Assembly (NCBI GenBank): GCA_017302295.1
Contig: JAFLDS010000028.1
Coordinates: 1-36,826, forward strand
Origin: Thauera sp.
Lineage (GTDB): Bacteria; Pseudomonadota; Gammaproteobacteria; Burkholderiales; Rhodocyclaceae
DNA: 36,826 nt
Direction: 5' to 3'
Position 1 is the first letter of the stretch. The number at the start of each line of letters is the position of its first letter. This document shows, piece after piece, positions 14,557 through 36,024 of the stretch. Below the pieces are notes generated by a model. It saw only the letters and a program-made list of their open reading frames with translations, was not told the origin of the DNA and searched no databases. A program made the position numbers and the translations under genes.

Positions 14557-15000
14557 TCAGTGTCGGGCAAAAACCGCCGCGCTTCCGTCAAGCCCGACCA
14601 GGAGTGTCTCATAGGGTTGCGGGGTCGACGTCTCCATCCCCGGCGACCCCTGCGGCATGCCCGGCGTAGCCAGTCCGATGGCCTTTGGGGACTCGGAGAG
14701 AAGCCGTCGGATGTCGTCCGCAGGGACGTGCCCCTCGACGGAGTAGGAACCGACCTTGGCCGTGTGACACGAGCCGTATTGGTCCGGCATGCCCAGTGCC
14801 TCGCGGGCTGCGGGGACATTGTCGACGTCTTTCGTCACGACATCGAAGCCGTTCTTTCTCAGGTGCTCGACCCATTTCCCGCAGCACCCGCAGTAAGCGC
14901 TCTTGTAGACCTCTACACGTACGGGCCCCTGCGCAAACCCTGCGCCGCTCATGATCATCAGGCTTGCTAAGAGTCCACCGAGCAAAGTTTTCGTCTTCAT
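14557..15000 (-). CDS. DUF411 periplasmic metal-binding protein
   Basis: This 147-residue protein has an N-terminal signal peptide (about residues 1-23, ending GAGFAQ) and the DUF411 domain. The key motif is YCGCCGKW (two closely spaced Cys pairs, near residues 36-43). HLRKNGFDVV, SCHTAKVG and YSVEGHVPADDIRRLL follow. Members occur in copper and silver resistance clusters and are proposed periplasmic metal-binding proteins; direct biochemistry is limited. The start at 15000 has a GGAAGA site; the longer frame (to 15117) runs through the promoter and is rejected. A copper-box element at 15060-15086 with a -10-like hexamer lies directly upstream. Confidence 0.85.
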   Translation of the reverse strand: MKTKTLLGGLLASLMIMSGAGFAQGPVRVEVYKSAYCGCCGKWVEHLRKNGFDVVTKDVDNVPAAREALGMPDQYGSCHTAKVGSYSVEGHVPADDIRRLLSESPKAIGLATPGMPQGSPGMETSTPQPYETLLVGLDGSAAVFARH

Positions 15001-15031: not shown

Positions 15032-15086
15032 AGTTTGGCGTTTCGAGCCCAACGGGAAGCTGACCTCAAAATTACATTTCCGTCAG
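15032..15086 (-). promoter_or_regulatory. Copper-box element A with -10, for the DUF411 gene
   Basis: Read on the - strand, CTGAC (15086-15082) is followed by GGAAATGTAAT and six more bases, then GTCAG (15064-15060). Exactly 22 bases on is CAAACT (15037-15032), a -10-like hexamer, with the ATG at 15000. The same layout occurs at three other copper promoters in the island. It resembles binding sites of CopR/CusR-type regulators with a TGTAAT half site. CopR binding is inferred. Confidence 0.75.
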
Positions 15087-15116
15087 ACAGCCGGGACTCC
15101 GGTCGACTTTGCAGCA

Positions 15117-16520
15117 TCAGGAAGGCGATGAGGCTTCATTGCGAGGCAAGGTGATCGTGAAGCAGGTGACACCTTCAGCGGAGCGCGCAGTGATGTGACC
15201 CCCGTGGGCCTGCACGATGGAACGCGTGATCGCAAGTCCGAGCCCTGCGCCTTCACCGCGAGACTCGCGCTGGGCGCTACCGCGATGGAAGCGTTCGAAA
15301 ATCCGTTCGATCTGATCGGCGGGTATCGGGTCGCCGACATTGCAAACGGCGAGACGGACGCCGGCTGCGTCCGCGTCGACCCTGATCGTGATCTGTCCAT
15401 TTTTCGGTGTGTGACGAAGCGCATTCGAAATCAGGTTCGACAAGGCGCGCCGCAGCATCAGGCGATCACCCTGAACGCTCGCTTGGCCTTGGCGCACGAT
15501 GCGGACTTGGCCCTCTTCGGCCAAGGCTTCGTAGAAATCGATCAGCGCATCCGCCTCGCGGGCCAGGTCGATCGCCTCGCCCGCGTGCGCGAGGGTGTTC
15601 TCCTCGGCCTTGGCGAGGAACAGCATGTCGCTGACCATGCGTGCGATGCGCTCGTATTCCTCGAGGTTCGACGCCAGAATGTCCTGATATTCGTCGAGCG
15701 TGCGTGGCCGCGACAGCGCGACCTGGGTCTGGGTCATCAGGTTCGAGATCGGCGTACGCAGTTCGTGGGCAATGTCCGCCGAATAGTCACCGAGGCGCTG
15801 GAAAGCAGCCTCGAGCCGGGCGAGCATGCCATTGAAGGCTTCGATGTGGTCGCGTACCTCCAGCGGTGCATCATCGATGGCGAGACGCTCGGCCAGTTGC
15901 CGTGCAGACAGCTTGCGGGCGGTTTCGGTGACCTGGCGCAGCGGGGCGAGGCCACGGTGCGCAGCAAACCAGCCGAAGAGCGCCGCCGCCAATGCTGCGA
16001 CGACGACGCCCGCCCACGTCGCATTTCGCACCGACGCGAGGAAATGGACGTGATGCGACAGATCGAGTGCGACCAGCGCCTCGATCGACTGGTCCCTCGA
16101 TTCGAGGGGCGGTAGCGTGATGCTGACCTCAACCCCTCGATGTGGATGCCCGTCGACCGTCCAGTCAGTCAGCCCGCCCGAAAGTCGTTCTCCAGCCCGC
16201 TGGGCAGCGGTGAAGTGCTCGGGGTGGATAACGTGGATGACGCGTCCCTCGACGTCGCGAAGCAGGACACCCACACTCTCGTGTCCAACGAAAGAGCGAG
16301 CGAGTGCCTGGATGCGTTCCGATCGCCCCCCAGTCGCAGTGTCATCCTGCAGCGCGTTGCGTATGAGTGCGGCCTTGCCCTGCAATTCGTGCAGGTCTAG
16401 CTCCTGGAAATGCGCGTCCAGCATGCGGCCAAACAGTACCGCTACCAGCACCAGCAGGCTTGCGGTGAGGGCCGCAAAGAGCGTTGCCAATCGCGCCGTC
16501 AGCGAGTGAATACGGATCAT
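15117..16520 (-). CDS. copS: Heavy-metal sensor histidine kinase
   Basis: This is an inner-membrane kinase that senses periplasmic Cu/Ag and phosphorylates CopR. The 467-residue protein has TM1 at about 10-32, a periplasmic loop of about 135 residues, TM2 at about 168-187, and a HAMP linker (HRGLAPLRQVTETARKLS). The H-box is SADIAHELRTPISNL, with phospho-acceptor H252. The kinase domain has an N-box (NLISNALRHTP) and a G-box (GEGAGLGLAITRSI). The loop is rich in His (HVIHPEHF, HPHRG, SHHVHF), suitable for metal binding. The ATG lies 2 bp after the copR stop, so the two form one operon. Confidence 0.93.
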   Translation of the reverse strand: MIRIHSLTARLATLFAALTASLLVLVAVLFGRMLDAHFQELDLHELQGKAALIRNALQDDTATGGRSERIQALARSFVGHESVGVLLRDVEGRVIHVIHPEHFTAAQRAGERLSGGLTDWTVDGHPHRGVEVSITLPPLESRDQSIEALVALDLSHHVHFLASVRNATWAGVVVAALAAALFGWFAAHRGLAPLRQVTETARKLSARQLAERLAIDDAPLEVRDHIEAFNGMLARLEAAFQRLGDYSADIAHELRTPISNLMTQTQVALSRPRTLDEYQDILASNLEEYERIARMVSDMLFLAKAEENTLAHAGEAIDLAREADALIDFYEALAEEGQVRIVRQGQASVQGDRLMLRRALSNLISNALRHTPKNGQITIRVDADAAGVRLAVCNVGDPIPADQIERIFERFHRGSAQRESRGEGAGLGLAITRSIVQAHGGHITARSAEGVTCFTITLPRNEASSPS

Positions 16521-16522
16521 CG

Positions 16523-17203
16523 TTAGCTCGGCTCCATTGCTTCGAGCACGTAGCCCATGCCGCGCACGGTGCGGATCAGCTTGGGCTCGAAGGGGTCGTC
16601 GACTTTCACCCGTAGCCTGCGCACTGCGACCTCGATCACGTTGGTGTCACTGTCGAAGTTCATATCCCACACCTGCGAAGCGATCAGGGAGCGCGGCAAC
16701 ACTTCACCTTTGCGGCGCAGCAGCAGTTCCAGCAGGGCAAACTCCTTGGCGGTCAGATCGATACGCTGCCCGCATCGCGTCACCCTGCGGCGAAGCAGAT
16801 CGAGTTCCAGGTTTGCCGAGCGCAGGATCTCCGGTTCATGACCCCGTCCCCTGCGCAGCAGGGTGCGGACCCGCGCGAGGAATTCCGAGAACGCGAAGGG
16901 CTTGATCAGGTAATCATCGGCGCCGAGTTCGAGGCCACGAACCCGATCCTCAACTTGGTCACGGGCAGTCAGGAACAGCACGGGCGTCTCACGACCGCCG
17001 CGCCGAAGCGTCTGCAAGATGCCCCAGCCGTCGAGCGACGGCAGCATCACATCCAGCACGATGAGGTCGTAGTCGCCAGCAAGCGCGAGGTGAAGCCCAT
17101 CGAGGCCATCTCTTGCGAGGTCGACTACGAACCCGGCCTCGGTCAGCCCCTGGCGCAGATAGTCGCCGGTCTTCACTTCATCTTCGACGATCAGCATTTT
17201 CAT
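16523..17203 (-). CDS. copR: Heavy-metal response regulator (OmpR/PhoB family)
   Basis: This is the transcriptional activator partner of CopS. The 226-residue protein has a receiver domain with acidic residues E7/D8, phospho-acceptor D51 (LIVLDVMLP) and a conserved Lys in [10 protein letters not shown]. The C-terminal winged-helix DNA-binding domain includes [23 protein letters not shown]-type helices and the ending [12 protein letters not shown]-like turn. Family length (about 225) is normal. It is transcribed away from the copper operon starting at 17390. Element B lies in the shared 186-bp spacer, so autoregulation is likely. Confidence 0.94.
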
Positions 17204-17273
17204 TGTCTTGCTCCTACGTGCTTCGTGCTGCCTGTGGGCAATTTTGCCCCCGGGGTGCCAGGTAACGCCCGGG

Positions 17274-17328
17274 CTTACAGAAATGTAATTTCCAGGTCAG
17301 GCCAGTGACAGGCAGGCGGGCGCAAGAT
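17274..17328 (+). promoter_or_regulatory. Copper-box element B with -10, for the multicopper oxidase operon
   Basis: CTTAC (17274-17278), then AGAAATGTAAT plus six bases, then GTCAG (17296-17300). CAAGAT at 17323-17328 is 22 bases further and fits a -10. It lies between divergent copR and the Met-rich gene. On the - strand a CAAAAT hexamer (17246-17241) could serve copR, though its spacing differs (27 bases). A 6-bp inverted repeat GGGCAA/TTGCCC (17236-17249) lies on the copR side. Confidence 0.75.
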
Positions 17329-17389
17329 GCTCTGCGTGGCACAGCGTTCCGTACCACGACGGAACCCCGCAACCGATGGGAGATCGATC

Positions 17390-17839
17390 ATGAAACTGCG
17401 TGTGTACCGTCTCGCCGGGCTCATGCCCGTCGTCGCTCTGGCTGCAGCCCTGCATGGCAGTCCGGTCGTCGCTCAAACGACTGAGCAAGCGCAGGCTTGG
17501 CCGCCCGCAGCGAGTGTCCCCGCGCTTCAGGAACGTATGAAGTCGATCCGTGCCGAGACCAACCCGGAACGTCGCATGGCCCTGATGGAAGAGCAGGTCA
17601 AGGCCCTGGAGGCTGCATCGCAGGGCACCCCCGCTGGTTGCCCGATGATGGGGGGGCAGATGGGGGCTGGTCCGATGATGAAGGGTAGTGGCCCTGGACC
17701 CGGGGCTGGACCCATGGGCGGCATGATGATGGATCCCAAGCTCATGCAGGAGCACATGAAGATGATGCAAGAGCACATGGGCATGATGCAGAACATGATG
17801 AAGATGCACCCGGCCGCCAAGCCGGCGATGCCCAACTGA
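17390..17839 (+). CDS. Met-rich secreted protein of copper operon
   Basis: This 149-residue protein has a probable signal peptide (about 1-28, ending SPVVAQ). A short Glu/Arg-rich helix (MKSIRAETNPERRMALMEEQ) follows. The C-terminal 67-residue segment contains 20 methionines, many as MM or MxxM pairs (PMMGGQM, HMKMMQEHMGMMQNMMKM). Such Met clusters bind Cu(I)/Ag(I) in periplasmic copper proteins, so a copper-binding or buffering role is inferred. I do not recognise a named family. It is the first gene after element B, has a GGGAG site, and is followed by four codirectional copper genes. Confidence 0.8.
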   Translation: MKLRVYRLAGLMPVVALAAALHGSPVVAQTTEQAQAWPPAASVPALQERMKSIRAETNPERRMALMEEQVKALEAASQGTPAGCPMMGGQMGAGPMMKGSGPGPGAGPMGGMMMDPKLMQEHMKMMQEHMGMMQNMMKMHPAAKPAMPN

Positions 17840-17917
17840 GCATTGAGACGCGGAGCGGCGAGTTCGTCGGTCGCTCTGCGTCCGGTTCAACACAAGACCA
17901 ACAAAGAGACATTCCCC

Positions 17918-18226
17918 ATGCAGAGTCGAATCATCCACCTCGGTGGAGGATTGGCCGTCGCCGTGGCGCTAGTGTCGGGCGCGCAGGCCGAGTCCTCCTC
18001 GCCATCAAGCCCCGCTGACCCCGCGCTCGGCGCGACCCAGACTGCCCCAGCGAGTGAGCAACCCAAGCCTCAGCCCCTTCCGGTCTATCGCTCGCCCCTG
18101 AACGAATATCGGCCCTACCGTGTCGATGAGCCCCTGCGGTCGTGGAAGGATGCCAACGACGAGGCCAGACGCCTGGGCGGGCACATGGGCCACCTCGCGC
18201 CGTCGTCGAAAGGGGGCGAGCGATGA
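17918..18226 (+). CDS. Small secreted protein, unknown function
   Basis: This 102-residue protein has a signal peptide (about 1-24, ending SGAQAE) and a Pro/Ser/Ala-rich linker. A short C-terminal block contains PVYRSPLNEYRPYRVDEPL followed by SWKDANDEARRLGGHMGHL. No cysteines are present; His and Met are few. I do not recognise the family. Its TGA overlaps the ATG of the outer-membrane factor gene (ATGA), so it is translationally coupled to it and probably works with it or with the oxidase. The ATG at 17918 has only a weak AAGAGA ribosome site. Confidence 0.7.
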   Translation: MQSRIIHLGGGLAVAVALVSGAQAESSSPSSPADPALGATQTAPASEQPKPQPLPVYRSPLNEYRPYRVDEPLRSWKDANDEARRLGGHMGHLAPSSKGGER

Positions 18227-19635
18227 GAGGCAGTCTCCCCATATCCTTGCTGGCTGCTACCGTGCTGACCGGGTGTGCCAGCGTTGCGATCGATGAGAAC
18301 TTCGCCGAGGTTGAGCGCTTTGCGCGCGAGCAGACGGGCAGCGAGGTGCGCTGGCTGCGCTCGGACCCCGAGCGCGAGGCGATGCGCACCGAGGTCGATC
18401 GGCTGCTGGCCCAGCCGCTCGCAATTGACGACGCGGTGCGCATCGCGCTCGGCTACAGCCCGGCCTTCCAGTCCCTGCTGGCGGAAGCCGCCGTGGCCTC
18501 GGCGGATGCGACCGGTTCCGCTCGCATCGGCAATCCGGTGTTCACCTTCGAGCGGCTGTTTCGCTCGGGCGCCGAGGGGCGCGAAATCGACATCGGCCGT
18601 TCGCTCGGCATCTCGCTGTTCGACCTGCTGTTCCTGCCTGCACGGCTGGAGCAGGCCGAGTTCCGCCAGCAGCAGACCCGGCTGCAGTCTTCGATTACGC
18701 TGTTGAGCACCGTCACTGAAGTGCGCCAGGCCTGGGTCGATGCGATCGCGGCGCGACAGGTCGCGCGCTACCGCGAGGAGGTGGCCACGGCCGCCGGGAC
18801 CGCTGCCGAGCTCGCCCGTCGGATGCAGGCCACCGGCAACTTCAGCCGCCTGCAGCGCGCCCGCGAGCAGGCGCTGGCCGCCGAGGAGACGGCCAACCTG
18901 ATCCGCGCCCGTCAGAACGCCACCGCCGCGCGCGAGGCGCTGATCCAGCGCTTGGGGCTGACCCCGAGCCAGGCGCAGACGCTACGCCTACCGGATCAGT
19001 TGCCGGCCTTGCCCGAGGCGCCGATGGACGAAGCCACCGCCGGTGCGGCGTTGCTGGAGAACCGGCTCGACGTGCGCATCGCCCGCACCGATCTCGACCG
19101 GACGGCGAAGAGCCTGGGTCTGACGCGGGTCACCAGCGTCGTCAATGGCCTGCATGTGGCCGGCGTGCGCAACAGCGAGACCGGTGAATCGTCGCAGCGC
19201 GGCTTCGAGATCGAACTGCCGCTGCCCCTGTTCGACTTCGGCGATGCGGCGCGCGCCGGCGGCGAGGCCCGCTATCTCGCGGCCTTCAATCGCACGCTCG
19301 AACTTGCCAGTAACGCCAGCTCCCAGGTCCGGGTGGCCTACGAGGGCTACCGCAGTGCATACGATCTTGCGCGCCACTACCGCAACGAGGTGGTCCCGCT
19401 GCGTCAGAACATCACCGAAGAGTCGGTGCTCCAGTACAACGGGATGCTGATCGGCGTGTTCGAGCTGCTTGCCGCTGCGCGGTCCCAATCGGCCAGCGCG
19501 GTGCAGGCGATCGAGGCCGAGCGCGACTTTTGGCGCGCCGAGGCGGCGCTCAAGGCCAGCCTGCTCGGCCAGCCGATCGCACCGATCAGCCTTCAATCGG
19601 GCGCATCGCCGGCAGAAGCCGGCGCTGGCCACTGA
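18223..19635 (+). CDS. TolC-family outer membrane lipoprotein
   Basis: This is an outer-membrane factor, forming a trimeric export duct. The 470-residue protein has a lipoprotein signal with lipobox LTGC (acylated C18). Two OEP repeats follow, typical of TolC/CusC proteins, with long Ala/Glu/Arg-rich coiled coils (about 100-270 and 320-450) and the strand motif FEIELPLPLFDFGDA. No RND or adaptor gene adjoins it; the RND set further downstream has its own TolC-like gene. Its neighbours are a small secreted protein upstream (overlap ATGA) and a multicopper oxidase 17 bp downstream. Its role in this operon is therefore uncertain. Confidence 0.88.
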   Translation: MRGSLPISLLAATVLTGCASVAIDENFAEVERFAREQTGSEVRWLRSDPEREAMRTEVDRLLAQPLAIDDAVRIALGYSPAFQSLLAEAAVASADATGSARIGNPVFTFERLFRSGAEGREIDIGRSLGISLFDLLFLPARLEQAEFRQQQTRLQSSITLLSTVTEVRQAWVDAIAARQVARYREEVATAAGTAAELARRMQATGNFSRLQRAREQALAAEETANLIRARQNATAAREALIQRLGLTPSQAQTLRLPDQLPALPEAPMDEATAGAALLENRLDVRIARTDLDRTAKSLGLTRVTSVVNGLHVAGVRNSETGESSQRGFEIELPLPLFDFGDAARAGGEARYLAAFNRTLELASNASSQVRVAYEGYRSAYDLARHYRNEVVPLRQNITEESVLQYNGMLIGVFELLAAARSQSASAVQAIEAERDFWRAEAALKASLLGQPIAPISLQSGASPAEAGAGH

Positions 19636-19652
19636 CCTGTCCGGAGACGTTC

Positions 19653-21056
19653 ATGACCACCCGACGCAGCTTTCTCGCCGGGGCGGGCCTCTTGGCCGCC
19701 GCCGGAACCGTCAACCGCGCCGCGCTCGCGGCGCTGCCCGAACCCGTGATCCAGACCAGCGCCGCAACGGCCGCGCCCTTGATCCCGCCCACTGGCCGCC
19801 CGTACGACCCGGTCGTCACGCTCAACGGCTGGACGGCGCCCTGGCGCATGAACGCTGGGGTGAAGGAGTTCCACCTCGTCGCCGAACCCGTCGAGCGCGA
19901 GATCGCCCCCGGCATGGTGGCGCGGCTCTGGGGCTATAACGGCCAGTCGCCCGGGCCGACGATCGAGGTCGTCGAGGGCGACCGCGTGCGCATCTTCGTC
20001 ACCAACCGTCTGCCCGAGCACACCACCATCCACTGGCATGGCCAGCGCCTGCCCAACGGCATGGACGGGGTGGGCGGCCTCAACCAGCCGCAGATCCCGC
20101 CGGGCAAGACCTTCGTCTACGAATTCATCGCCCGCCGCCCCGGCACCTTCATGTACCACCCGCACGCCGACGAGATGGTGCAGATGGCGATGGGCATGAT
20201 GGGCTTCTGGGTCACGCACCCGCGCGAACCACATCCGCACATCGCGCGCGTGGATCGCGACTTTTGCTTCCTGCTCAACGCCTACGACATCGAGCCGGGC
20301 AGCTACGTGCCCAAGATCAACACCATGCTCGAGTTCAACCTGTGGACCTGGAACAGCCGCGCCTTCCCCGGCATCGACTCGCTCAATGTCCGGAAGGGCG
20401 ACCACGTGCGGGTGCGCATCGGCAACCTGACGATGACCAACCACCCGATCCACATCCACGGCCACGAGTTCGAGGTCACCGGCACCGACGGCGGGCCGAC
20501 GCGCCCCGAATCGCGCTGGCCCGAGGTCACCACCGACGTGGCGGTCGGCCAGATGCGCCAGATCGAGTTCATCGCCGACGAGGAGGGCGACTGGGCGATG
20601 CACTGCCACAAGTCGCACCACACCATGAACGCGATGGGCCACGACGTGCCGACCATGATCGGCGTCGACCACCGCGGCCTGGTCGAGGGCATCCAGAAGT
20701 TGGTGCCCGACTACATGCTGATGGGCGAGCGCGGCATGGCCGACATGGGCGAGATGGAGATGGCGCTGCCCGACAACACCCTGCCGATGATGACCGGGCA
20801 GGGGCCGTTCGGCGCCATCGAGATGGGCGGCATGTTCACCGTGCTCAAGGTACGGCGTGAGCAGAAACGGGGCGACTACCGCGATCCGGGCTGGTTCAAG
20901 CACCCGAAGGGGACGGTGGCCTACGAGTGGGCCGGCGCGGCGCTGCCCGAACCGGCGCGCAGCGATGCAGCCGGAGCTTCGAGCATGCCGCGCGCCGAGC
21001 CGGCGCGATCGGTCGAGATGACGGTTCGCAAGCCTACTGGCCATCAGGGGCATTGA
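19653..21056 (+). CDS. Multicopper oxidase, Tat-exported
   Basis: This is a periplasmic multicopper oxidase, expected to oxidise Cu(I) to the less toxic Cu(II). The 467-residue protein has a twin-arginine signal (TTRRSFLAGAG, residues 2-12). The four copper-binding His segments are present: HWHG (127-130), HPH (169-171), HPIHIHGH (264-271) and HCHKSHH (317-323). The type-1 site therefore has C318, H323 and axial M328. A Met-rich patch near the C-terminus (GMADMGEMEMAL, PMMTGQ) could hold substrate Cu(I). It is shorter than PcoA/CopA oxidases (about 600). GGAG precedes ATG 19653. A cupredoxin gene follows after 70 bp. Confidence 0.93.
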   Translation: MTTRRSFLAGAGLLAAAGTVNRAALAALPEPVIQTSAATAAPLIPPTGRPYDPVVTLNGWTAPWRMNAGVKEFHLVAEPVEREIAPGMVARLWGYNGQSPGPTIEVVEGDRVRIFVTNRLPEHTTIHWHGQRLPNGMDGVGGLNQPQIPPGKTFVYEFIARRPGTFMYHPHADEMVQMAMGMMGFWVTHPREPHPHIARVDRDFCFLLNAYDIEPGSYVPKINTMLEFNLWTWNSRAFPGIDSLNVRKGDHVRVRIGNLTMTNHPIHIHGHEFEVTGTDGGPTRPESRWPEVTTDVAVGQMRQIEFIADEEGDWAMHCHKSHHTMNAMGHDVPTMIGVDHRGLVEGIQKLVPDYMLMGERGMADMGEMEMALPDNTLPMMTGQGPFGAIEMGGMFTVLKVRREQKRGDYRDPGWFKHPKGTVAYEWAGAALPEPARSDAAGASSMPRAEPARSVEMTVRKPTGHQGH

Positions 21057-21126
21057 AGTCAATCGTCCGGTAATCAGCACCCATAACAACACCAGTGAGA
21101 TTCAATCAACAGAGATGGAGATTCCC

Positions 21127-21627
21127 ATGAAAAATCGTCGTCGTTTTCTCGCCAGCGGCCTTGCCGCCGGTGTGCTTGCCCTGCACCGCAGCGCGTTCGC
21201 CCATGGCAATGCCGCGCATGCAGCCAAAGCAGCCTCTGACACCCCCAAGGAGCAGCAGGCCTGGGGGATTGCCGGCACTGAGAAGGCCGTCTCACGAACG
21301 ATCCCGATCGTGATGACCGATGAAATGCGCTTCGTGCCTGACCGCATCGAGGTGCGCCTGGGCGAGACAATCCGCTTCACCCACGAGAACCGGGGCGCGG
21401 TGATGCACGAAATGGTGGTCGGTACGCCCGAGACACTGGCCGAGCACGCTGAGATGATGCAGCGCTTCCCCGAGATGGAGCATGACGAGCCGTGGATGGC
21501 TCACGTCCCGCCGGCCGGGCGAGGCGAGATGATCTGGGAGTTCAACCGTGCCGGCGATTTCCAGTTCGCCTGCCTGATTCCCGGTCACTTCCAGGCCGGC
21601 ATGATCGGCTCGATCAAGGTTGGCTGA
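21127..21627 (+). CDS. Periplasmic cupredoxin (type-1 copper protein)
   Basis: This 166-residue protein has an RR-containing signal (KNRRRFLASGL, possible Tat) ending near AFAHG. A plastocyanin/azurin-like domain carries the four expected type-1 copper ligands: H94 (VMHEMVV), C149 (FACLIPGH), H154 and M159. An insert with Met, His and Glu (residues 105-120, HAEMMQRFPEMEHDE) is typical of cupredoxins in copper-resistance clusters. It probably accepts electrons from, or carries copper for, the preceding oxidase. ATG 21127 has a GGAG site. The TGA stop (21625-21627) lies inside copper-box element C. Confidence 0.9.
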   Translation: MKNRRRFLASGLAAGVLALHRSAFAHGNAAHAAKAASDTPKEQQAWGIAGTEKAVSRTIPIVMTDEMRFVPDRIEVRLGETIRFTHENRGAVMHEMVVGTPETLAEHAEMMQRFPEMEHDEPWMAHVPPAGRGEMIWEFNRAGDFQFACLIPGHFQAGMIGSIKVG

Positions 21628-21678
21628 CAGAAATGTAATCCGTGCGTCAGCGTCCCGTTGGTGAGCCCTTCGCATAAT
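21624..21678 (+). promoter_or_regulatory. Copper-box element C with -10, for the cus operon
   Basis: CTGAC (21624-21628), AGAAATGTAAT plus six bases, then GTCAG (21646-21650). The best -10 of the set, CATAAT, is at 21673-21678, again 22 bases on. The left arm supplies the stop codon of the cupredoxin gene. After the right arm, CGTCCCGTTGG is close to CTTCCCGTTGG in element A, so sequence beyond the box is also shared. Confidence 0.8.
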
Positions 21679-21729
21679 CGTGCTGACTTTCGAATTCACC
21701 CAGACATGCAACCCTTGGAGAGAACCATC

Positions 21730-22077
21730 ATGAAGAAGACCCTCATCACCACTGCGCTCCTGGCCCTGCTGGGCGGTACGGCCCCGGTGGCGTTTGCGCA
21801 GGCCGATCACGACGCCCACCACGGCGGCGCGAGTGCCCCAGCCGAAGCCGATGCCAAGCTGGCCGAGGGCACGGTCAAGAAGATCGACAAGTCGGCGGGC
21901 AAGCTCACCATCGCGCACGGCCCGCTCGAATCGCTCGGCATGCCGGCGATGACCATGGTGTTCCGCGCGGCCGAGCCGGGCCTGCTCGATCAGGTCAAGG
22001 TGGGCGACAAGATCCGCTTCGCGGTCGAGCGCGTCGGTGGTGCGCTGACGGTGACGTCGCTCGAAGCTGCCCAGTGA
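21730..22077 (+). CDS. CusF-like periplasmic copper-binding protein
   Basis: This is a small periplasmic Cu(I)/Ag(I) chaperone of the CusF family, expected to hand metal to the CusCBA pump. The 115-residue protein has a signal peptide (about 1-24, PVAFAQ), a His-rich start of the mature protein (DHDAHHGG), and the OB-fold metal loop AHGPLESLGMPAMTM. CusF of E. coli uses His, Trp, Met and Met; here H63, M74 and M76 are present but the Trp position holds M71. GGAGAG precedes the ATG. It leads the second copper block and is followed by the TolC, adaptor and RND genes. Confidence 0.88.
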   Translation: MKKTLITTALLALLGGTAPVAFAQADHDAHHGGASAPAEADAKLAEGTVKKIDKSAGKLTIAHGPLESLGMPAMTMVFRAAEPGLLDQVKVGDKIRFAVERVGGALTVTSLEAAQ

Positions 22078-22116
22078 CGCCTACCCCGCAGGTGCGTCGC
22101 GCGCCACGCTGACCAT

Positions 22117-22145
22117 CCGCCCCGGGGCATGCGCTGCCGGGGTGG
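22117..22145. repeat. Hairpin between cusF-like and cusC-like genes
   Basis: CCGCCCCGG (22117-22125) pairs with CCGGGGTGG (22137-22145), a 9-bp stem with one G-T wobble and an 11-base loop. No T-tract follows. It may act as a processing or partial attenuation site that sets different levels of the small chaperone and the pump; this is only inference. Confidence 0.5.
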
Positions 22146-22212
22146 CTGAACGACGAGGCGGGTGGCGAAGGGCCTGCGCATGCACTTCACCGCCTGCCGG
22201 AATCGTTTCTCG

Positions 22213-23520
22213 ATGAAATCCCCGTTCGCAGTACCCTCATCTCACCGGCCACGTCCCGCAGCGTTTGCCCTGGTGCTCGCGCTGACGCTGGGCAGTGGCA
22301 GTGCCTGGACGCAGGGCGCGCCCGACACGCCGACGCTCGGCGCGAACCCCCAGGCGCTGATCGACCATGCGCGCCAGAGCAACCCCGGCTTTGCCGCTGC
22401 GCGCGCGGAAGCGTCTGCAGCGCAGGAGCGCGTGACGCCCGCCGGTGCGCTGCCCGACCCGACCTTCGAGCTCGAGCTGATGGACGCCACCAACACCATG
22501 AGCGGGCGCTCGGCGTCCCTGTTGCCCGGCCAGGTGGGCGAGACGCGCTACCGCATCACCCAGCCGCTGCCCGGGTGGGGCAAGCGTGAGCTGGCGGTGA
22601 AGGCCGCCCAAGCCCAGGCGACCCAGGCCGATGCGATGCGCGATGTCTCCTGGGCCGAGCTCGCGGCAAAGATCGAGACGCTGTGGTTGCGCTACTACTC
22701 GGCCGACCGCGAGCTTGCCCTCAACCGCGACGCGCTGACCCTGCTGCAAAGCCTGGAGGAACTGAGCCTCACCCGTTACGAGCTCGGTCTGCTGCCGCAG
22801 CAGGCGGTGTTGCGCATGCAGCGCGAGATCACCGCGCAGCGCCTCGCGCTCGTCGAGGTCGAACAGCGGCGCAAGGGGCTGGCAGCGGGGCTCAACGGCC
22901 TGCTCGGCCGGGCGCATGATGCGCCGCTCGCCACACCCGCAGATCCAGCCCCCTTGCCCGAGCAGCTGGAGGCGGGCGCCCTTTTTGAGTCGGCGGCCAG
23001 TGCCAACCCGGACGTGAATGCCGCCGCCTACGGCATCGACGTGGCACGTGCCGAGCGCGAACGAACGTATCAGGACCGCTTGCCGGACTTCGCCGTTGGC
23101 GTGCGCAACAACCGCCCGGATGAAGGCAAGGCGTCGTGGGACGTGATGTTCGAGGTGATGATCCCGCTGCAGCAGTCCAGCCGTCGCGCCAGGGAGCGCG
23201 AAGCCGAGTACATGCTGATGGCGGCCGAGGCGCGGCGGGAGGACGCCCGCGCGCGCGCGACCGGCGAGCTCGGTATTGCCTGGTCGATGTATGCGCAAGG
23301 CCGCGAGACCTTGCGCCTGCTCGAACATACGTTGCTGCCGCAGGCCCAGGCCACCCGGGATGCAAGTCAGGCCGCGCTCAGCAGCGGCAAGGTCGACTTC
23401 GACAGCGTGATCGAAGCCGAGCGCCAGCTCATCGACATCCGGACTCAACGCTTGAAGGCCGAGCTCGACACGCGCCTGGCGCTGACAGAAATCAAGAAAC
23501 TGACAGGGGATCTGAAGTGA
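22213..23520 (+). CDS. cusC: CusC-like outer membrane factor (TolC family)
   Basis: This is the outer-membrane duct of the tripartite Cu/Ag efflux pump. The predicted 435-residue protein has a signal peptide (about 1-33, ending SGSAWTQG) and the two OEP domains with long Gln/Ala/Glu-rich coiled coils. It has no lipobox, unlike the other TolC-like gene at 18223. The start is uncertain: ATG 22213 gives the best signal peptide, while ATG 22180 or GTG 22162 would add 11 or 17 residues; none has a strong ribosome site. The 3' end overlaps the start of the adaptor gene (GTGA). Confidence 0.85.
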   Translation: MKSPFAVPSSHRPRPAAFALVLALTLGSGSAWTQGAPDTPTLGANPQALIDHARQSNPGFAAARAEASAAQERVTPAGALPDPTFELELMDATNTMSGRSASLLPGQVGETRYRITQPLPGWGKRELAVKAAQAQATQADAMRDVSWAELAAKIETLWLRYYSADRELALNRDALTLLQSLEELSLTRYELGLLPQQAVLRMQREITAQRLALVEVEQRRKGLAAGLNGLLGRAHDAPLATPADPAPLPEQLEAGALFESAASANPDVNAAAYGIDVARAERERTYQDRLPDFAVGVRNNRPDEGKASWDVMFEVMIPLQQSSRRAREREAEYMLMAAEARREDARARATGELGIAWSMYAQGRETLRLLEHTLLPQAQATRDASQAALSSGKVDFDSVIEAERQLIDIRTQRLKAELDTRLALTEIKKLTGDLK

Positions 23521-25073
23521 GCTCAGCCGTTCGAATGACGGCGATCGCTGTGGGCGTGGCGATTGCCATAGGTGCGGGGTACTGGATTGCGCACCTGCAA
23601 AATGCTGGAAATCCAGTTCCGCTGATCACCGAAAGCCAGGCGCAAAGCGATAGCGCAGCCCCGGCCGACGGCGAACGCAAGATCCTCTACTACCGCAACC
23701 CGATGGGCCTGCCCGACACCTCGCCCGTGCCGAAGAAGGATTCGATGGGCATGGACTACATCCCCGTCTACGCCGACGACCAGCCCGACGACAGCGGCGC
23801 GGTGGTGGTCAGCCCTGCGCGCATCCAGACCCTGGGGGTGAAGACCGCAGAGGTTGAGCTGCGCACCGTGGATGCGGCGGTGCGCGCGAGCGGCCGTATC
23901 GAGTTCGACGAGCGCAGGCAGGTGGTGGTGGCGCCGCGCTTCGAGGGCTGGATCGAGCGCCTGCATGTGAATGCGGTCGGCGACCCGGTGAGGAAGGGCC
24001 AGCCGCTGTTCACCGCCTACAGTCCAGAGCTGCAATCCACTGGCGAGGAGTTGCGCATTGCCGAGCGTCTGGCCAGCCAGAGCGCGGCGCAGGATCCGAT
24101 CGCAAGCGAATCCGCCCGCCGCCTGGCGGAGGCGACGCGTGCGCGCCTGCGCAACCTGCAGGTGGCCGGCCAGGCCGGTGCGCGCCAGGTCTTCCACGCC
24201 CCGGCGAGCGGCGTGGTGCTGGAGAAGGAGGCCATCGAAGGCGGACGCTTTATGCCGGGAGACGCACTGTTCCGCATCGCCGACCTGTCGAAGGTGTGGA
24301 TCATTGCTGATGTGTATGAACAGGATCTCGCTCGCGTGCAGGTCGGTCAGAGCGCGCAGGTGGCGCTCGAGGCCTATCCCGGTCGCAGCTTCGCGGCGCG
24401 AGTCGATTATCTCTATCCGACGTTGGACGCCGCGACGCGCAGCACCCGCGTGCGCCTGGAACTGGACAACCCGGAGGGCCTGTTGCGCCCAGGCATGTTC
24501 GCCCAGATCGCGCTGGCGGCAGGTGATGCCACCCCGAGGGTCGCCGTGCCGAGCTCGGCGATCATCGACGATGGCGAACGGCGGGTCGTGCTGATTGCGC
24601 TCGGCGAAGGGCGCTTCAAGCCGCAGCCGGTGAAGCTCGGCCAGCGCGGTCGAGATGTGGTCGAGGTGCTCGACGGCGTGGCGGCGGGCGATCGCGTGGT
24701 GGTTTCGGCCAACTTCCTGATCGACTCGGAAAGCCAGCTCAAGGCGGCACTCTCCAACCTTGTCGAGCCCGATGCCGGCGATCAGCCCCAAGCGAGCCCT
24801 ACCCGTTACGAAGCGCAAGGGACGTTCGATGCACTCGACGCCGAAGGCGGCAGCGTGACGATGACGCATGGCGAGATCCCGGCCCTCCAGTGGCCGGCGA
24901 TGACCATGGACTTCATGATTGCCGATCCGGCGCTGGTGAAGAGCATCGCCCCAGGCTCGCCGGTGCGGTTCGTCTTCGAGGCGGGTGAGCCAGGCGAGTA
25001 CATCATCACAGGCATCGAGCCGGTTGCAGGCACTGCGCCTGCACCGAGCGCCGGCGGTCACGGGGGGCACTGA
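23517..25073 (+). CDS. cusB: CusB-type periplasmic adaptor with N-terminal metal domain and C-terminal CusF domain
   Basis: This is the membrane-fusion subunit linking CusA and CusC. The 518-residue chain has, in order: an N-terminal anchor (7-24); a heavy-metal-binding domain (YYRNPMGLPDTSPVPKKDSM, about 58-85); the HlyD-like barrel, lipoyl and hairpin core (about 95-410); and a fused CusF-like domain (about 429-505). The last carries H451, W459, M462 and M464 (ALQWPAMTM) and ends in a GGHGGH tail. The GTG at 23517 was chosen because AGGGGA is well spaced before it and it overlaps the previous stop; ATG 23535 is the alternative. The cusA ATG follows its TGA by one base. Confidence 0.92.
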   Translation: MSSAVRMTAIAVGVAIAIGAGYWIAHLQNAGNPVPLITESQAQSDSAAPADGERKILYYRNPMGLPDTSPVPKKDSMGMDYIPVYADDQPDDSGAVVVSPARIQTLGVKTAEVELRTVDAAVRASGRIEFDERRQVVVAPRFEGWIERLHVNAVGDPVRKGQPLFTAYSPELQSTGEELRIAERLASQSAAQDPIASESARRLAEATRARLRNLQVAGQAGARQVFHAPASGVVLEKEAIEGGRFMPGDALFRIADLSKVWIIADVYEQDLARVQVGQSAQVALEAYPGRSFAARVDYLYPTLDAATRSTRVRLELDNPEGLLRPGMFAQIALAAGDATPRVAVPSSAIIDDGERRVVLIALGEGRFKPQPVKLGQRGRDVVEVLDGVAAGDRVVVSANFLIDSESQLKAALSNLVEPDAGDQPQASPTRYEAQGTFDALDAEGGSVTMTHGEIPALQWPAMTMDFMIADPALVKSIAPGSPVRFVFEAGEPGEYIITGIEPVAGTAPAPSAGGHGGH

Positions 25074-25074
25074 G

Positions 25075-28000
25075 ATGCACGCCCCCGTGACAGACTCTTC
25101 GAACGTCGTGCCAACCGACGCGGCAGCCAGACCGGCAGCACCCGGCCTGCTCGACCGCGTCATCGACTGGTCGGCACGCAACGTCTTCCTCGTTCTGCTC
25201 GCCACGCTGTTCCTGATTGGCGGTGGCCTCTACGCGGTCAAGCACACGCCGCTCGACGCGCTGCCCGACCTCTCGGACGTGCAGGTCATCGTCTACACCG
25301 ACTACCCCGGCCAGGCGCCGCAGGTGGTCGAGGACCAGGTCACCTATCCGCTCACCACCTCGATGCTGGCGGTGCCGCGCGCCAAGGTGGTGCGCGGCTT
25401 CTCGATGTTCGGCGCGTCCTATGTGTATGTGATCTTCGAGGACGGCACCGACATCTACTGGGCGCGTTCGCGCGTGCTCGAATATCTGAGCACCGCCGCC
25501 AGCCGCCTGCCGCAGGGCGTGGCGCCGCAGATCGGGCCGGACGCGACCGGCGTGGGCTGGGTGTACCAGTACGCGGTGGTGGGCCGCGACATGAGCCTGG
25601 CCGACACGCGCAGCCTGCAGGACTGGTACGTGCGCTACCAGCTCACCAAGGCGCAAGGTGTGTCCGAGGTCGCCAGCATCGGCGGCTTTGTACGCGAATA
25701 CCAGGTCACAGTCGATCCGCTACGTTTGGCGGGCTACGGCATCACGCTCGACCAGGTGACGCAGGCGATCCGCGCCTCCAACCGCGACGTCGGCGGGCGG
25801 GTGGTGGAGCTCGCCGAGAAGGAATATATGGTGCGCGGTCGGGGCTACCTGCAAAGCGTGCAGGACATCGCCGACATCGTGCTCAAGGCCGAGCGTGGCA
25901 CGCCGGTGCGCGTGGGCGACGTCGCCCGCGTCGAGCTGGTGCCGGCCGAGCGGCGCGGCATCGCCGAGCTGAACGGCGAGGGCGAGGTGGCCTCGGGCAT
26001 CGTGATGGCCCGCTTCGGCCAGAACGCGCTCGACGTGATCGCCAACGTCAAGGCCAAGATCGCCGAGATCACCCCGGGCCTGCCGGCGGGGGCCGAGATC
26101 GTGCCGGTCTATGACCGCTCCGAACTAATCGAGCGCGCGATCGGCAACTTGAAATGGACGCTGCTCGAGGAGAGCCTGATCGTCGCCGCCGTGTGCGTGA
26201 TCTTCCTGCTCCATGTGCGCAGTGCGCTGGTGGCGATCATCACGCTGCCGCTTGGCATCCTGTTCGCCTTCATCGCCATGCGCTCGCTCGGCCTAGGTTC
26301 GAACATCATGAGCCTGGGTGGCATCGCGATCGCGATCGGGGCGATGGTGGACGCGGCGATCGTGATGATCGAGAACACGCACAAGCACATCGAGCGCCTG
26401 CCCGCAGGCGCGACCCAGAAGGTGCGCGGCGCTGCGATCGTGCTGGCGTGCAAGGAGGTCGGGCCGGCGCTGTTCTTCTCGCTGCTGATCATCACCGTGT
26501 CCTTCCTGCCGGTGTTCGCGCTCGAAGGCCAGGAGGGGCGGCTGTTCTCGCCGCTCGCCTTCACCAAGACCTTCGCCATGGCCGGCGCCGCGCTGCTGTC
26601 GGTGACCCTGGTGCCGGTGCTGATGCTGTTCTTCGTGCGCGGGCGCATCCTGCCCGAGGCGAAGAACCCGGTGAACCGGCTGCTGATCTGGCTGTACCGG
26701 CCGATCATCAAGGGCGTGCTGCGCTTCAAGGTCCTCACGCTCGTGCTCGCCGTGCTGGCGATGGCCGCCACCATCGTGCCCGCGCGCCAGATCGGCTCGG
26801 AGTTCATGCCGACGCTCAACGAAGGCACGCTGTTCTACATGCCGGCGGCGCTGCCGGGGATGTCGGTGACCGAGGCCGGGCGCCTGCTTGCCACCACCAA
26901 CCGCATCATCAAGACCTTCCCCGAGGTCGAGTCGGTGTACGGCAAGGCCGGCCGCGCCAACACCGCCACCGACCCGGCGCCGCTCGAGATGTTCGAGACC
27001 GTGATCAACCTCAAGCCGCAGGACCATTGGCGCCCCGGCATGACCACCGACAAGCTGATCGCCGAAATGGACGCCGCGCTCAAGTTCCCCGGCCTGGCCA
27101 ACTCGTGGACCATGCCGATCAAGGCGCGCATCGACATGCTCAGCACCGGCATCCGCACGCCGGTGGGGGTGAAGGTCTTCGGCAAGGATCTGGAAACGTT
27201 GGAGAAGGTGGCGCAGGCGGTGGAGGCGGCGGTGCGCAAGGTGCCGGGAGCGAGCAGTGCCTACGCCGAGCGCGTGGCCGGCGGCTACTACGTGGACATC
27301 GTGCCGCGCCGCGACCAGCTCGCGCGCTACGGGCTCACCATCGACATGGTGCAGGACGTGATCGCCACCGCGCTCGGCGGCGAGATGGTGACGACCACGG
27401 TCGAGGGCCTGGAGCGCTACGGCGTGTCGGTGCGCTACGCGCGCGGCCTGCGCGACGACCCGGCGCGGCTCGCCTCCGACGTGTTCGTGCCGACGATGAA
27501 CGGCCCGATCCCGCTCGGCCAGGTGGCCGAGGTCAAACTGACGCGCGGCGCACCCGCCATCCGCACCGAGAACGCGCTGCTGGCGGCCTATGTGTATGTC
27601 GACACGCGCGAGGCCGACCTCGGCGCCTTCGTCAAGCGCGCGCAGCAGGCGGTGGCCGAGGAGGTCGAGTTCCCGCAGGGCTATTACGCCACCTGGAGCG
27701 GCCAGTTCGAGAACATGGAGCGTGCCAAGGAGAAGATGAAGATCGTGGTGCCGGTGACGCTGGCGCTGATCTTCGTGCTGCTCTACCTCAACTTCCGGCG
27801 CCTGACCGAGACCCTGATCGTGATGCTGTCGGTGCCCTTCGCGCTGGTCGGCGGGGTGTGGCTGATGTGGTGGCTGGGCTACCAGATGAGCGTGGCGGTG
27901 GCGGTGGGCTTCATCGCGTTGGCGGGTGTTGCGGCGGAGACCGGGGTGATCATGCTGATCTACCTCGACCATGCCTGGCGCGAGGTGCGGGCGCGCTGCC

Positions 28001-28314
28001 AAGCCGAGGGCCGCGAGGCCGGCGTCACCGACCTGTACGAGGCGATCATGGAAGGCGCGGTCGAGCGTGTGCGCCCGAAGATGATGACCGTGGTGGCGAT
28101 CATGGCCGGCCTGCTGCCGATCATGTGGAGCACCGGCACCGGCAGCGAGGTCATGAGCCGCATCGCCGCGCCGATGGTGGGCGGCATGGTGTCGTCGACC
28201 GTGCTGACGCTGGCGGTGATTCCGGCGCTGTATGCGCTGGTGAAGCAGTGGGAGCTGCGCCGCAGCGCCCGGCCAGCGCCGGCGCAGGTTCCAGTGACGG
28301 TGTCTAACTTGTAA
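25075..28314 (+). CDS. cusA: CusA-type Cu(I)/Ag(I) RND efflux pump
   Basis: This is the inner-membrane, proton-driven RND transporter of a heavy-metal efflux (HME) pump. The 1079-residue protein has the family start (DALPDLSDVQVIVYTDYPGQ, about 62-81), the TM4 proton-relay segment (VDAAIVMIENTHKHIE) and about 12 membrane helices. The three substrate-binding methionines of CusA appear as M589 (FYMPAALPG), M639 (APLEMFET) and M688 (RIDMLSTG). Their spacings of 50 and 49 equal those of E. coli M573, M623 and M672. That favours monovalent Cu/Ag over Zn/Co/Cd export. The TAA stop lies inside element D. Confidence 0.95.
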   Translation: MHAPVTDSSNVVPTDAAARPAAPGLLDRVIDWSARNVFLVLLATLFLIGGGLYAVKHTPLDALPDLSDVQVIVYTDYPGQAPQVVEDQVTYPLTTSMLAVPRAKVVRGFSMFGASYVYVIFEDGTDIYWARSRVLEYLSTAASRLPQGVAPQIGPDATGVGWVYQYAVVGRDMSLADTRSLQDWYVRYQLTKAQGVSEVASIGGFVREYQVTVDPLRLAGYGITLDQVTQAIRASNRDVGGRVVELAEKEYMVRGRGYLQSVQDIADIVLKAERGTPVRVGDVARVELVPAERRGIAELNGEGEVASGIVMARFGQNALDVIANVKAKIAEITPGLPAGAEIVPVYDRSELIERAIGNLKWTLLEESLIVAAVCVIFLLHVRSALVAIITLPLGILFAFIAMRSLGLGSNIMSLGGIAIAIGAMVDAAIVMIENTHKHIERLPAGATQKVRGAAIVLACKEVGPALFFSLLIITVSFLPVFALEGQEGRLFSPLAFTKTFAMAGAALLSVTLVPVLMLFFVRGRILPEAKNPVNRLLIWLYRPIIKGVLRFKVLTLVLAVLAMAATIVPARQIGSEFMPTLNEGTLFYMPAALPGMSVTEAGRLLATTNRIIKTFPEVESVYGKAGRANTATDPAPLEMFETVINLKPQDHWRPGMTTDKLIAEMDAALKFPGLANSWTMPIKARIDMLSTGIRTPVGVKVFGKDLETLEKVAQAVEAAVRKVPGASSAYAERVAGGYYVDIVPRRDQLARYGLTIDMVQDVIATALGGEMVTTTVEGLERYGVSVRYARGLRDDPARLASDVFVPTMNGPIPLGQVAEVKLTRGAPAIRTENALLAAYVYVDTREADLGAFVKRAQQAVAEEVEFPQGYYATWSGQFENMERAKEKMKIVVPVTLALIFVLLYLNFRRLTETLIVMLSVPFALVGGVWLMWWLGYQMSVAVAVGFIALAGVAAETGVIMLIYLDHAWREVRARCQAEGREAGVTDLYEAIMEGAVERVRPKMMTVVAIMAGLLPIMWSTGTGSEVMSRIAAPMVGGMVSSTVLTLAVIPALYALVKQWELRRSARPAPAQVPVTVSNL

Positions 28315-28354
28315 TGCAGCGGTCAGCGGCGCGACAGCATCGGGGGCGTAGCCT
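28300..28354 (+). promoter_or_regulatory. Copper-box element D (degenerate) with -10
   Basis: GTGTC (28300-28304) stands in place of CTGAC. The TGTAAT core (28310-28315) and GTCAG (28322-28326) are intact and at the same spacing as in elements A to C. TAGCCT (28349-28354) is 22 bases downstream. The element spans the cusA stop codon and would start a separate transcript for the 28409-32598 genes. It is the weakest of the four copies. Confidence 0.6.
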
Positions 28355-28408
28355 GTTTCCAAGGCCCCGTTCCCGAGGCTGCCGCTGAACGTGACGAGGA
28401 GCATTGCG

Positions 28409-28552
28409 ATGCTTACCTGGATCAAATCCCTCTGGCAATCCTTCAAGAACTGGTGTCGCGAGAACGAGCGGGCCCACCGGGATGCCCCGCTCTCGCCGTG
28501 CTGCTCGAAGCCGCCCGCAGCCGTTCGCCATTCGCCGACCCGCAAGGTATGA
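28409..28552 (+). CDS. 47-aa protein of copper operon, unknown
   Basis: This short gene starts at ATG 28409 with a strong GAGGAG site at 28396-28401. The 47-residue product has an amphipathic Trp-rich N-terminus (LTWIKSLWQSFKNWCRENE), a CC pair (SPCCSKPP) and a basic tail. It has no signal peptide. It is the first gene after element D, and the next ATG comes 4 bp after its stop, which supports translation. No family is recognised. Three Cys residues (C16, C32, C33) could bind metal, but this is speculative. Confidence 0.65.
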   Translation: MLTWIKSLWQSFKNWCRENERAHRDAPLSPCCSKPPAAVRHSPTRKV

Positions 28553-28556
28553 AGCC

Positions 28557-28805
28557 ATGAACACAAAGCCTGCTCATGATCCTGGACTCCCTCGATCTGT
28601 CGCCTGGTATCGCTCTCCCGGCGTCATCGCTGGCCTGATGCTGGCTGCAATCGCACTGTTCTTCCTGCTGCGCGAACACTGGGCGCATGTGTCGGGCAAC
28701 TGGGTGTATCTGATCCTGTTGCTGTGCCCGCTGATGCACCTGTTTGGCCATGGAGGACATCACGGCGGGCACCGCAGCAACGACACCGATTCGGCGGAGC
28801 GGTGA
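28557..28805 (+). CDS. DUF2933 small membrane protein (copy 1)
   Basis: This 82-residue protein has two hydrophobic segments (about 20-39 and 49-62) and a His-rich C-terminal tail (HLFGHGGHHGGH). The block HWAHVSG, LILLLCPLMH and HGGH is the DUF2933 signature found in small membrane proteins of metal-resistance loci. Function is unknown; metal binding by the Cys/Met/His cluster is inferred. A second copy lies at 31697 in the same operon. It starts 4 bp after the 47-aa gene, and the cytochrome ATG follows its stop by one base. Confidence 0.82.
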   Translation: MNTKPAHDPGLPRSVAWYRSPGVIAGLMLAAIALFFLLREHWAHVSGNWVYLILLLCPLMHLFGHGGHHGGHRSNDTDSAER

Positions 28806-28806
28806 G

Positions 28807-29205
28807 ATGCCTATGACACGGGCACGCATTGGCCGTGGCGCCGTCATTGCGGCGCTTTCGGGCGCCATGATTTCGAGCGCAGCGGCGCAAGGCTGGACGA
28901 TCCCGCAGCCCTCGCCGGGATTGATGCCCAATCCGGCTCAAGGAAAGGCACTTTATGCACAGCACTGTGCCGCATGCCACGGGACCGACCTCAAGGGTTC
29001 GGACAAGGGGCCACCCATGCTCCACAAGGTCTACGAGCCCAGTCATCACGCCAATATGGCCTTTCAGTTGGCGGTGGCGAACGGCGTGCGCGCTCACCAT
29101 TGGCAGTTCGGCGACATGGCACCCGTTCCCGAACTGACGCCGGACGACGTCGCGCACATCACGGCATTCGTGCGCGGTGAACAGCGCAAGATGGGCATTC
29201 GATAA
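28807..29205 (+). CDS. c-type cytochrome (monohaem)
   Basis: This 132-residue protein has a signal peptide (about 1-27, SSAAAQ) and a single class-I cytochrome c domain. The haem motif is CAACH (C54, C57, H58); M104 in FGDMAPVPELTPDDV is the likely axial ligand. It would be periplasmic. It lies in a copper-efflux operon, directly before the P-type ATPase. It might carry electrons in periplasmic Cu(I) oxidation, but no partner is proven. GGAG precedes ATG 28807; an in-frame ATG at 28813 is an alternative start. Confidence 0.88.
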   Translation: MPMTRARIGRGAVIAALSGAMISSAAAQGWTIPQPSPGLMPNPAQGKALYAQHCAACHGTDLKGSDKGPPMLHKVYEPSHHANMAFQLAVANGVRAHHWQFGDMAPVPELTPDDVAHITAFVRGEQRKMGIR

Positions 29206-29229
29206 CAATAATCGACGGGGAGAAGTCTC

Positions 29230-36022: not shown

Positions 36023-36024
36023 GG

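Follow-up and report, generated by a model that had tools for sequence, protein, structure and literature searches.

How might four separate copper transcription blocks be brought under one switch, from promoters that lack a −35 element? The question is raised by a copper island in a 36 826 nt stretch of DNA from Thauera sp. (assembly GCA_017302295.1, contig JAFLDS010000028.1), referred to here as the window. An earlier description made from the letters of the window (the sequence-only reading) had placed a 27 bp element in front of each of the four blocks, with a −10-like hexamer starting 22 bp after its GTCAG motif, and had suggested from the context that CopR binds it. The four elements, with their positions, arms, cores and hexamers, were all present as described, and one copy precedes each block (Table 1). 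CopR is encoded in the island itself and is 68% identical to Escherichia coli CusR, which is consistent with a CopR-type operator at a fixed spacing. Each element is very probably a copper-switched operator-promoter of the CopR (CusR/AgrR/LciR) type; binding by CopR, induction by copper and the start sites are inferred for this organism from relatives.

Half-site architecture of the operators

The sequence-only reading had paired CTKAC and GTCAG as arms 17 bp apart. Comparative data did not bear out this pairing: the recurring unit is a half-site of the form GTMAT/GTCAG, repeated in an 11 bp register. The first two half-sites make an inverted repeat, TKACA-N4-TGTAAT. GTCAG has the orientation of GTAAT and follows it at 11 bp; a further step of 11 bp leads to GTYRG, a fourth half-site that had been overlooked. 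The site is, as had been claimed, longer than one pair of half-sites. All four window sites carry the core inverted repeat, the downstream elements (4/4) and the fixed distance to the −10 hexamer (4/4), with a regulator and a kinase as neighbours and metal-resistance genes behind them.

For promoter coordinates, the hexamer is taken as −12 to −7. The inverted pair is then predicted at about −60 to −46, GTCAG at −39 to −35 and GTYRG at −28 to −24, and the array ends 11 bp before the −10 hexamer.

Occurrence in the genome and a second copper island

Both strands of the 4.11 Mb genome were scanned for TGTAATN6GTCAG. Seven exact copies were found, the four window sites and three on contig C33, where about 0.4 would be expected by chance (calculated with the 65.6% GC content of the window, standing in for that of the genome). 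All seven are confined to two copper islands; matches scattered without regard to copper genes, which would have spoken against the sequence-only reading, were not seen. Allowing one mismatch added just two places (reversed control, 1 + 1), both of which were set aside: the match on C12 looks by eye like a tRNA gene, and that on C52 lacks both a proper left half and a hexamer at +22. With up to three mismatches, the longer pattern TKACAN4TGTMATN6GTCAG occurs at 21 places in the genome (reversed control, 4 + 3), with the seven copper sites at 0–2 mismatches and the 14 others at 3; one of these 14 (C33:12922-12947, minus strand) overlaps site E on the opposite strand.

The second copper island (C33, 12191-22993) holds genes for a Cu ATPase, TolC, a multicopper oxidase, DUF411 and CusF proteins, together with its own CopR and three operators. 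Its CopR is 89% identical to that of the window, and the two proteins may cross-regulate. The hexamers of the three C33 operators (CAGCAT, CACGAT and CACACT) have A at position 2 and T at position 6 (A2/T6) and start exactly 22 bp after GTCAG, so that the spacing seen at 4/4 window sites was recovered at 3/3 held-out sites (chance ~3e-5). Their fourth half-sites are imperfect (GACGC, GACAG and GTCGC).

Spacing and half-sites in related genomes

Two sets of relatives were used. A GTDB scan for TKACAN4TGTAATN6GTCAG returned at least 118 stretches, of which 80 listed loci (L013-L092) with 84 sites were taken; 83 sites entered the offset count and 79 remained after edge trimming and removal of duplicates. 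All GTDB counts below hold among the matches listed. The family set consisted of 150 genomes of the window's family, scanned with the shorter TGTAATN6GTCAG and with no conditioning on the left half or on downstream sequence. This pattern was present in 89 of the 150 genomes, and reversed-control matches in 19 (hand count). The family loci, 30 chosen by the tool and 48 picked by hand from among the matches listed (in most cases the place that came first for its genome), gave 93 sites after trimming. Loci L230-L232 were picked for holding several sites; L230 and L231 hold the window's own island, and 87 sites remain without these two. A site was called island-linked if at least one protein of a set of 26, drawn from three copper islands, had a tblastn match (E 1e-5) within 1.5 kb of it. 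The 26 include generic CopR, CopS, TolC and cytochrome c proteins, and the counts were repeated with copper-specific proteins only.

An A2/T6 hexamer stands at +22 in 67 of the 83 GTDB sites; the remaining offsets between 10 and 44 gave counts of 0 to 17. In the family set it stands at +22 in 76/93 sites (70/87 without L230 and L231); 59 other offsets gave a mean of 3.1 and a maximum of 11. An island-gene homologue was found within 1.5 kb of 80/93 family and 60/79 GTDB sites, and a copper-specific one near 55/93 and 42/79, respectively. The hexamer follows this linkage, being kept at 70 of 80 linked and 6 of 13 unlinked family sites (Fisher p 0.002) and at 55 of 60 linked and 9 of 19 unlinked GTDB sites (Fisher p 0.0001). 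With copper-specific neighbours only it is kept at 51/55 family and 40/42 GTDB sites, and where the neighbours are CopR/CopS homologues only, at 6/12 and 6/8. After clustering at 70% identity it is kept in 106 of 135 sites. Over both sets, the spacing is exactly 22 bp at 125 of 140 linked sites (80 family, 60 GTDB), and the hexamer has A2 in 126 and T6 in 127 of them, as in TATAAT.

The fourth half-site recurs at its own position. GxYxG was found there in 55/93 family sites (other offsets: mean 3.7, maximum 15), its first base is G in 135/140 linked sites (92/97 of those with copper-specific neighbours) and its last base is G in 112/140. A −35 element is missing: among the 135 clustered sites, only two have at least four of six matches to TTGACA at a spacing of 16–18 bp, which is below the shuffled rate of 4%.

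Proposed mechanism and alternatives

In the mechanism that we propose, CopS would sense periplasmic copper and activate CopR, a member of the OmpR family. A CopR dimer would be loaded on the inverted pair TKACA-N4-TGTAAT, and the in-phase GTCAG and GTYRG half-sites would extend the CopR array in one direction, towards the −10 hexamer, covering the place of the missing −35 element. The filled array would hold sigma-70 RNA polymerase on an otherwise defective promoter, from which transcription would start only with CopR bound, and the four copper blocks would be switched on together. We infer, and only infer, one CopR protomer per downstream half-site and sigma-70 as the sigma factor. The symmetric core would serve one gene only because the downstream half-sites are directional: a search for an array pointing from site B towards copR gave none that matched at least 15 of 21 consensus positions, and on the cusR side of the E. 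coli cusC core there is no hexamer at +22.

A wider form of this proposal is put forward tentatively, as one that may well prove wrong: many CopR-family promoters of Beta- and Gammaproteobacteria might share a mixed-symmetry operator, made of an inverted-repeat dimer site and, in register with it, a tandem dimer site resembling that of PhoB, which takes the place of the −35 element, with four CopR protomers at 11 bp steps and 11 bp to the −10 hexamer. If true, such an operator would explain both the cop promoters that seem to have no sigma-70 elements and one-way activation from a symmetric core. In the open-access main texts (that is, apart from figures and supplements) we did not find both downstream elements described as half-sites that share one 11 bp register and replace the −35 element; we do not claim that such a description is absent from print. 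Passages of PMC7763554, PMC10141476, PMC9725139 and PMC10127602 proved irrelevant to the layout.

Several observations weigh against the proposed mechanism. The spacing that the sequence-only reading had called invariant fails at 15 of the 140 linked sites, five of which fit with one base either side. The fourth half-site is the weakest of the half-sites, and the footprints of AgrR stop before reaching its position, at −40 to −32. In the stretch of pMOL30 that was scanned, a usable array was found at copA only, though copC, copI, copK, copM, copR and copT are also there, and a copper plasmid of Acidovorax gave no array above 16/21; the strict layout is therefore common but not universal. The cusR side of the E. 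coli core, mentioned above, counts here as well. For Pseudomonas putida copR1 and copA2, the published footprints, once converted, lie at about −131 to −97 and −158 to −122 from the mapped 5′ ends and do not fit the array. The sigma-factor assignments of PMC9045368, given below, also speak against a pure sigma-70 reading.

The alternative that survives best is that CopR occupies the inverted repeat only, perhaps with GTCAG, and that it is sigma region 4 or RNA polymerase, and not CopR, that touches the fourth element or the two downstream ones. The end points of the AgrR footprints (PMC7380067) would suit this, as would the location of the fourth element where polymerase would sit and the finding that GxYxG is complete in just 52/80 family and 48/60 GTDB linked sites. 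Both downstream elements, however, resemble the TGTMA half-site and stand at exact 11 bp steps from it, they are unlike TTGACA, as the count above indicates, and AgrR and LciR mutants in the downstream elements lose activation. We regard this alternative as unlikely.

It is considerably less probable that another OmpR-family regulator, such as a zinc or silver paralogue, reads the shared element alone or together with CopR. The GTAAT half-site is common to CopR, CusR and CzcR, and the Pseudomonas regulators IrlR, MmnR and CzcR target the same pcoA2-cusR DNA as CusR (PMC11195947). Against this, no regulator in the genome other than the two island CopR proteins exceeds the TIGR01387 cut-off of 279 bits, the next best scoring 176 bits.

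The same low probability is given to an alternative sigma factor acting at copper promoters, with the fixed hexamer as its own −10 element. The study of P. putida cop promoters in PMC12428095 (2025) found no −10/−35 elements of the major sigma factors and suggested unidentified sigma factors, and in PMC9045368 copR1S1 of Cupriavidus metallidurans is assigned to a sigma factor other than RpoD, whereas RpoD and one more are assigned to the cop region. The A2 and T6 preference noted above, however, is that of TATAAT, and the register of the hexamer relative to the operator is fixed; the E. coli cusC promoter shows TAAAGT at this place, and an activator site replacing the −35 element could make RpoD scoring fail. 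The proposed CopR array on a sigma-70 promoter would offer a simpler answer to the P. putida puzzle, namely a −10 hexamer whose distance to the operator is fixed and regulator half-sites at the place of the −35 element; two of the four mapped 5′ ends misfit.

Chance resemblance of four AT-rich intergenic patches is rejected: site D has a poor distal half (TGTCT, two mismatches; likewise TGTCC where a relative carries the island, L231), but seven exact sites stand against ~0.4 expected, and the hexamer recurs at all three held-out sites and in 76/93 of the family set.

Features of the window

The coordinates of the operators, predicted promoters and genes are given in Table 1. The gene order is DUF411, copS and copR on the minus strand followed by three plus-strand blocks.

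Table 1. Operators, predicted promoters and genes of the copper island, in window coordinates; starts are predictions
Feature	Position	Strand	Remarks
Site A, CTGACGGAAATGTAATTTTGAGGTCAG	15060-15086	−	
Site A half-sites TGACG, TGTAAT, GTCAG	15085-15081, 15076-15071, 15064-15060	−	1 mismatch to TKACAN4TGTMATN6GTCAG
Site A fourth half-site GTTGG	15049..15053	−	11 bp after GTCAG
Site A −10-like hexamer CAAACT	15032..15037	−	
Site A predicted +1	~15025	−	~25 bp upstream of the DUF411 gene ATG (15000)
Site B, CTTACAGAAATGTAATTTCCAGGTCAG	17274-17300	+	
Site B half-sites TTACA, TGTAAT, GTCAG	17275..17300	+	0 mismatches
Site B fourth half-site GACAG	17307..17311	+	
Site B −10-like hexamer CAAGAT	17323..17328	+	Predicted +1 ~17335; ATG 17390
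Site C, CTGACAGAAATGTAATCCGTGCGTCAG	21624-21650	+	
Site C half-sites TGACA, TGTAAT, GTCAG	21625..21650	+	0 mismatches
Site C fourth half-site GTTGG	21657..21661	+	
Site C −10-like hexamer CATAAT	21673..21678	+	Predicted +1 ~21685; cusF-like ATG 21730
Site D, GTGTCTAACTTGTAATGCAGCGGTCAG	28300-28326	+	
Site D half-sites TGTCT (degenerate), TGTAAT, GTCAG	28301..28326	+	2 mismatches, distal half only
Site D fourth half-site GACAG	28333..28337	+	
Site D −10-like hexamer TAGCCT	28349..28354	+	Predicted +1 ~28361
Glutaredoxin-like/DUF411 protein gene	14557..15000	−	Behind site A
copS, heavy-metal sensor kinase	15117..16520	−	TIGR01386 E 4.6e-143, over cut-off
copR, heavy-metal response regulator, presumed operator binder	16523..17203	−	TIGR01387 E 1.9e-106, over cut-off
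Site B block	17390..21627	+	Short unknown open reading frame(s), TolC-type outer membrane protein, multicopper oxidase, CopI-like cupredoxin
Site C block	21730..28314	+	CusF-like protein, TolC-type channel, CusB-like adaptor, CusA-type pump (over cut-off)
Site D block	28404..31578	+	DUF2933 protein, cytochrome c, copper P-type ATPase (TIGR01511, over cut-off)

In the site B block, the multicopper oxidase (CopA-like) and the CopI-like cupredoxin both score below their family cut-offs. The first gene of this block (17390-17839, +) encodes a 149-residue protein for which neither Pfam nor NCBIfam gave a match at E 0.001; its open reading frame (ORF) is open from 17327, with a likely start at 17390. 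The CusB-like adaptor (23136-25073, +) has a CusF-like stretch at its C-terminal end (ORF residues 555-614), looking like a CusB-CusF fusion. A candidate ORF of 53 residues (28391-28552, +) occupies the interval from site D to the DUF2933 domain. At 33035-36585 (−) the island is bordered by a transposase of the Tn3 family, scoring over the cut-off, and by a serine resolvase-like gene that scores below the cut-offs. Positions 1-14 500 of the window were covered by the ORF list and two proteins.

A genome with a different genus label (G086, locus L231) has four sites spaced 2224, 4350 and 6675 bp apart, compared with 2224, 4350 and 6676 bp in the window, and a second genome of the same family (G103, locus L230) appears to hold the same island. 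This near-identical spacing under a different genus label suggests horizontal transfer of the island.

Comparison with known systems

A close description is that of the LciR element of Legionella lciE (PMC6989116): an inverted repeat, ATTACAAnnTTGTAAT, followed by two short conserved elements before the −10 and a precise distance to it. The LciR element recurs next to homologous two-component systems in many bacteria and is directional, serving lciE and not lciR; three of four element mutants lost copper induction and the fourth nearly so (PMC6989116). By its description, the LciR element has the inverted repeat, two downstream elements and fixed −10 distance in common with the window sites. 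The Legionella genome has one site, whereas seven are present here, and the main text of PMC6989116 names the downstream elements 4 bp conserved sequences, without the terms 'half-site' and 'direct repeat'.

For the AgrR box of C. metallidurans NA4, an in-phase direct repeat has been defined, with footprints from −65 to −35 and from −63 to −32, and mutation of the promoter-proximal direct repeat largely affected activation (PMC7380067). AgrR differs from the present system in that its direct repeats occur at some operators, upstream and/or downstream, and in that it serves silver resistance; a second downstream half-site is not mentioned in the accessible text of that paper.

On pMOL30 of C. 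metallidurans, a 37 bp motif, proposed as the CopR1 site, precedes every cop primary start by about 50 bp, apart from those of copG, copK and copO (PMC7563307); it is not dissected into half-sites in the accessible text. The sequence-only reading had expected transcription to start about 7 bp after the hexamer. This expectation was borne out, to within 2 bp, at one promoter of one relative: the pMOL30 copA array (16/21) predicts +1 at 191 245 (hand conversion), and the published start, copper-only and checked by rapid amplification of cDNA ends, is at 191 243 (PMC7563307).

E. coli K-12 cusC (the CusR box) reads TGACA-attt-TGTCAT-ttttct-GTCAC-cggaaa-ATCAG-agcctggcgag-TAAAGT, matching 19/21 consensus positions. 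The array and spacing are as in the window; the differences are TGTCAT for TGTAAT and ATCAG as the fourth element. Three arrays at 19–20/21 were found on a cop plasmid of P. syringae. In P. putida, the published copA1 footprint (−89 to −43 from the ATG, with the start 20 bp before the ATG) converts to −69 to −23 and covers the array region, and the copR2 footprint converts to −73 to −35, a partial fit. Locus L047 of P. shirazensis, which by eye precedes a different gene, was not used as an anchor.

At phoA, the sites of PhoB overlap the −35 (PMC3348028). The pho box of E. coli pstS consists of two TGTCAT repeats 11 bp apart, followed after 10 bp by TATAAC, which we take to be the −10. As in PhoB-type promoters, the window sites have direct half-sites (GTCAG and GTYRG) 11 bp apart over the −35 region (about −39 to −24), upstream of the −10. 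The pho box has no upstream inverted pair, and its last repeat lies 10 bp from the −10 compared with 11 bp here. The copper array may work like a pho box, by this analogy, and is not classed as one.

Given the descriptions of LciR, AgrR and the pMOL30 cop motif, the main architecture is already known, and the window supplies new members. The gain is one of precision and not a new kind of switch: the layout gives a rule, applicable to sequence alone, for finding copper-inducible promoters and their start sites, which at the mapped start of pMOL30 copA came within the 2 bp reported above.

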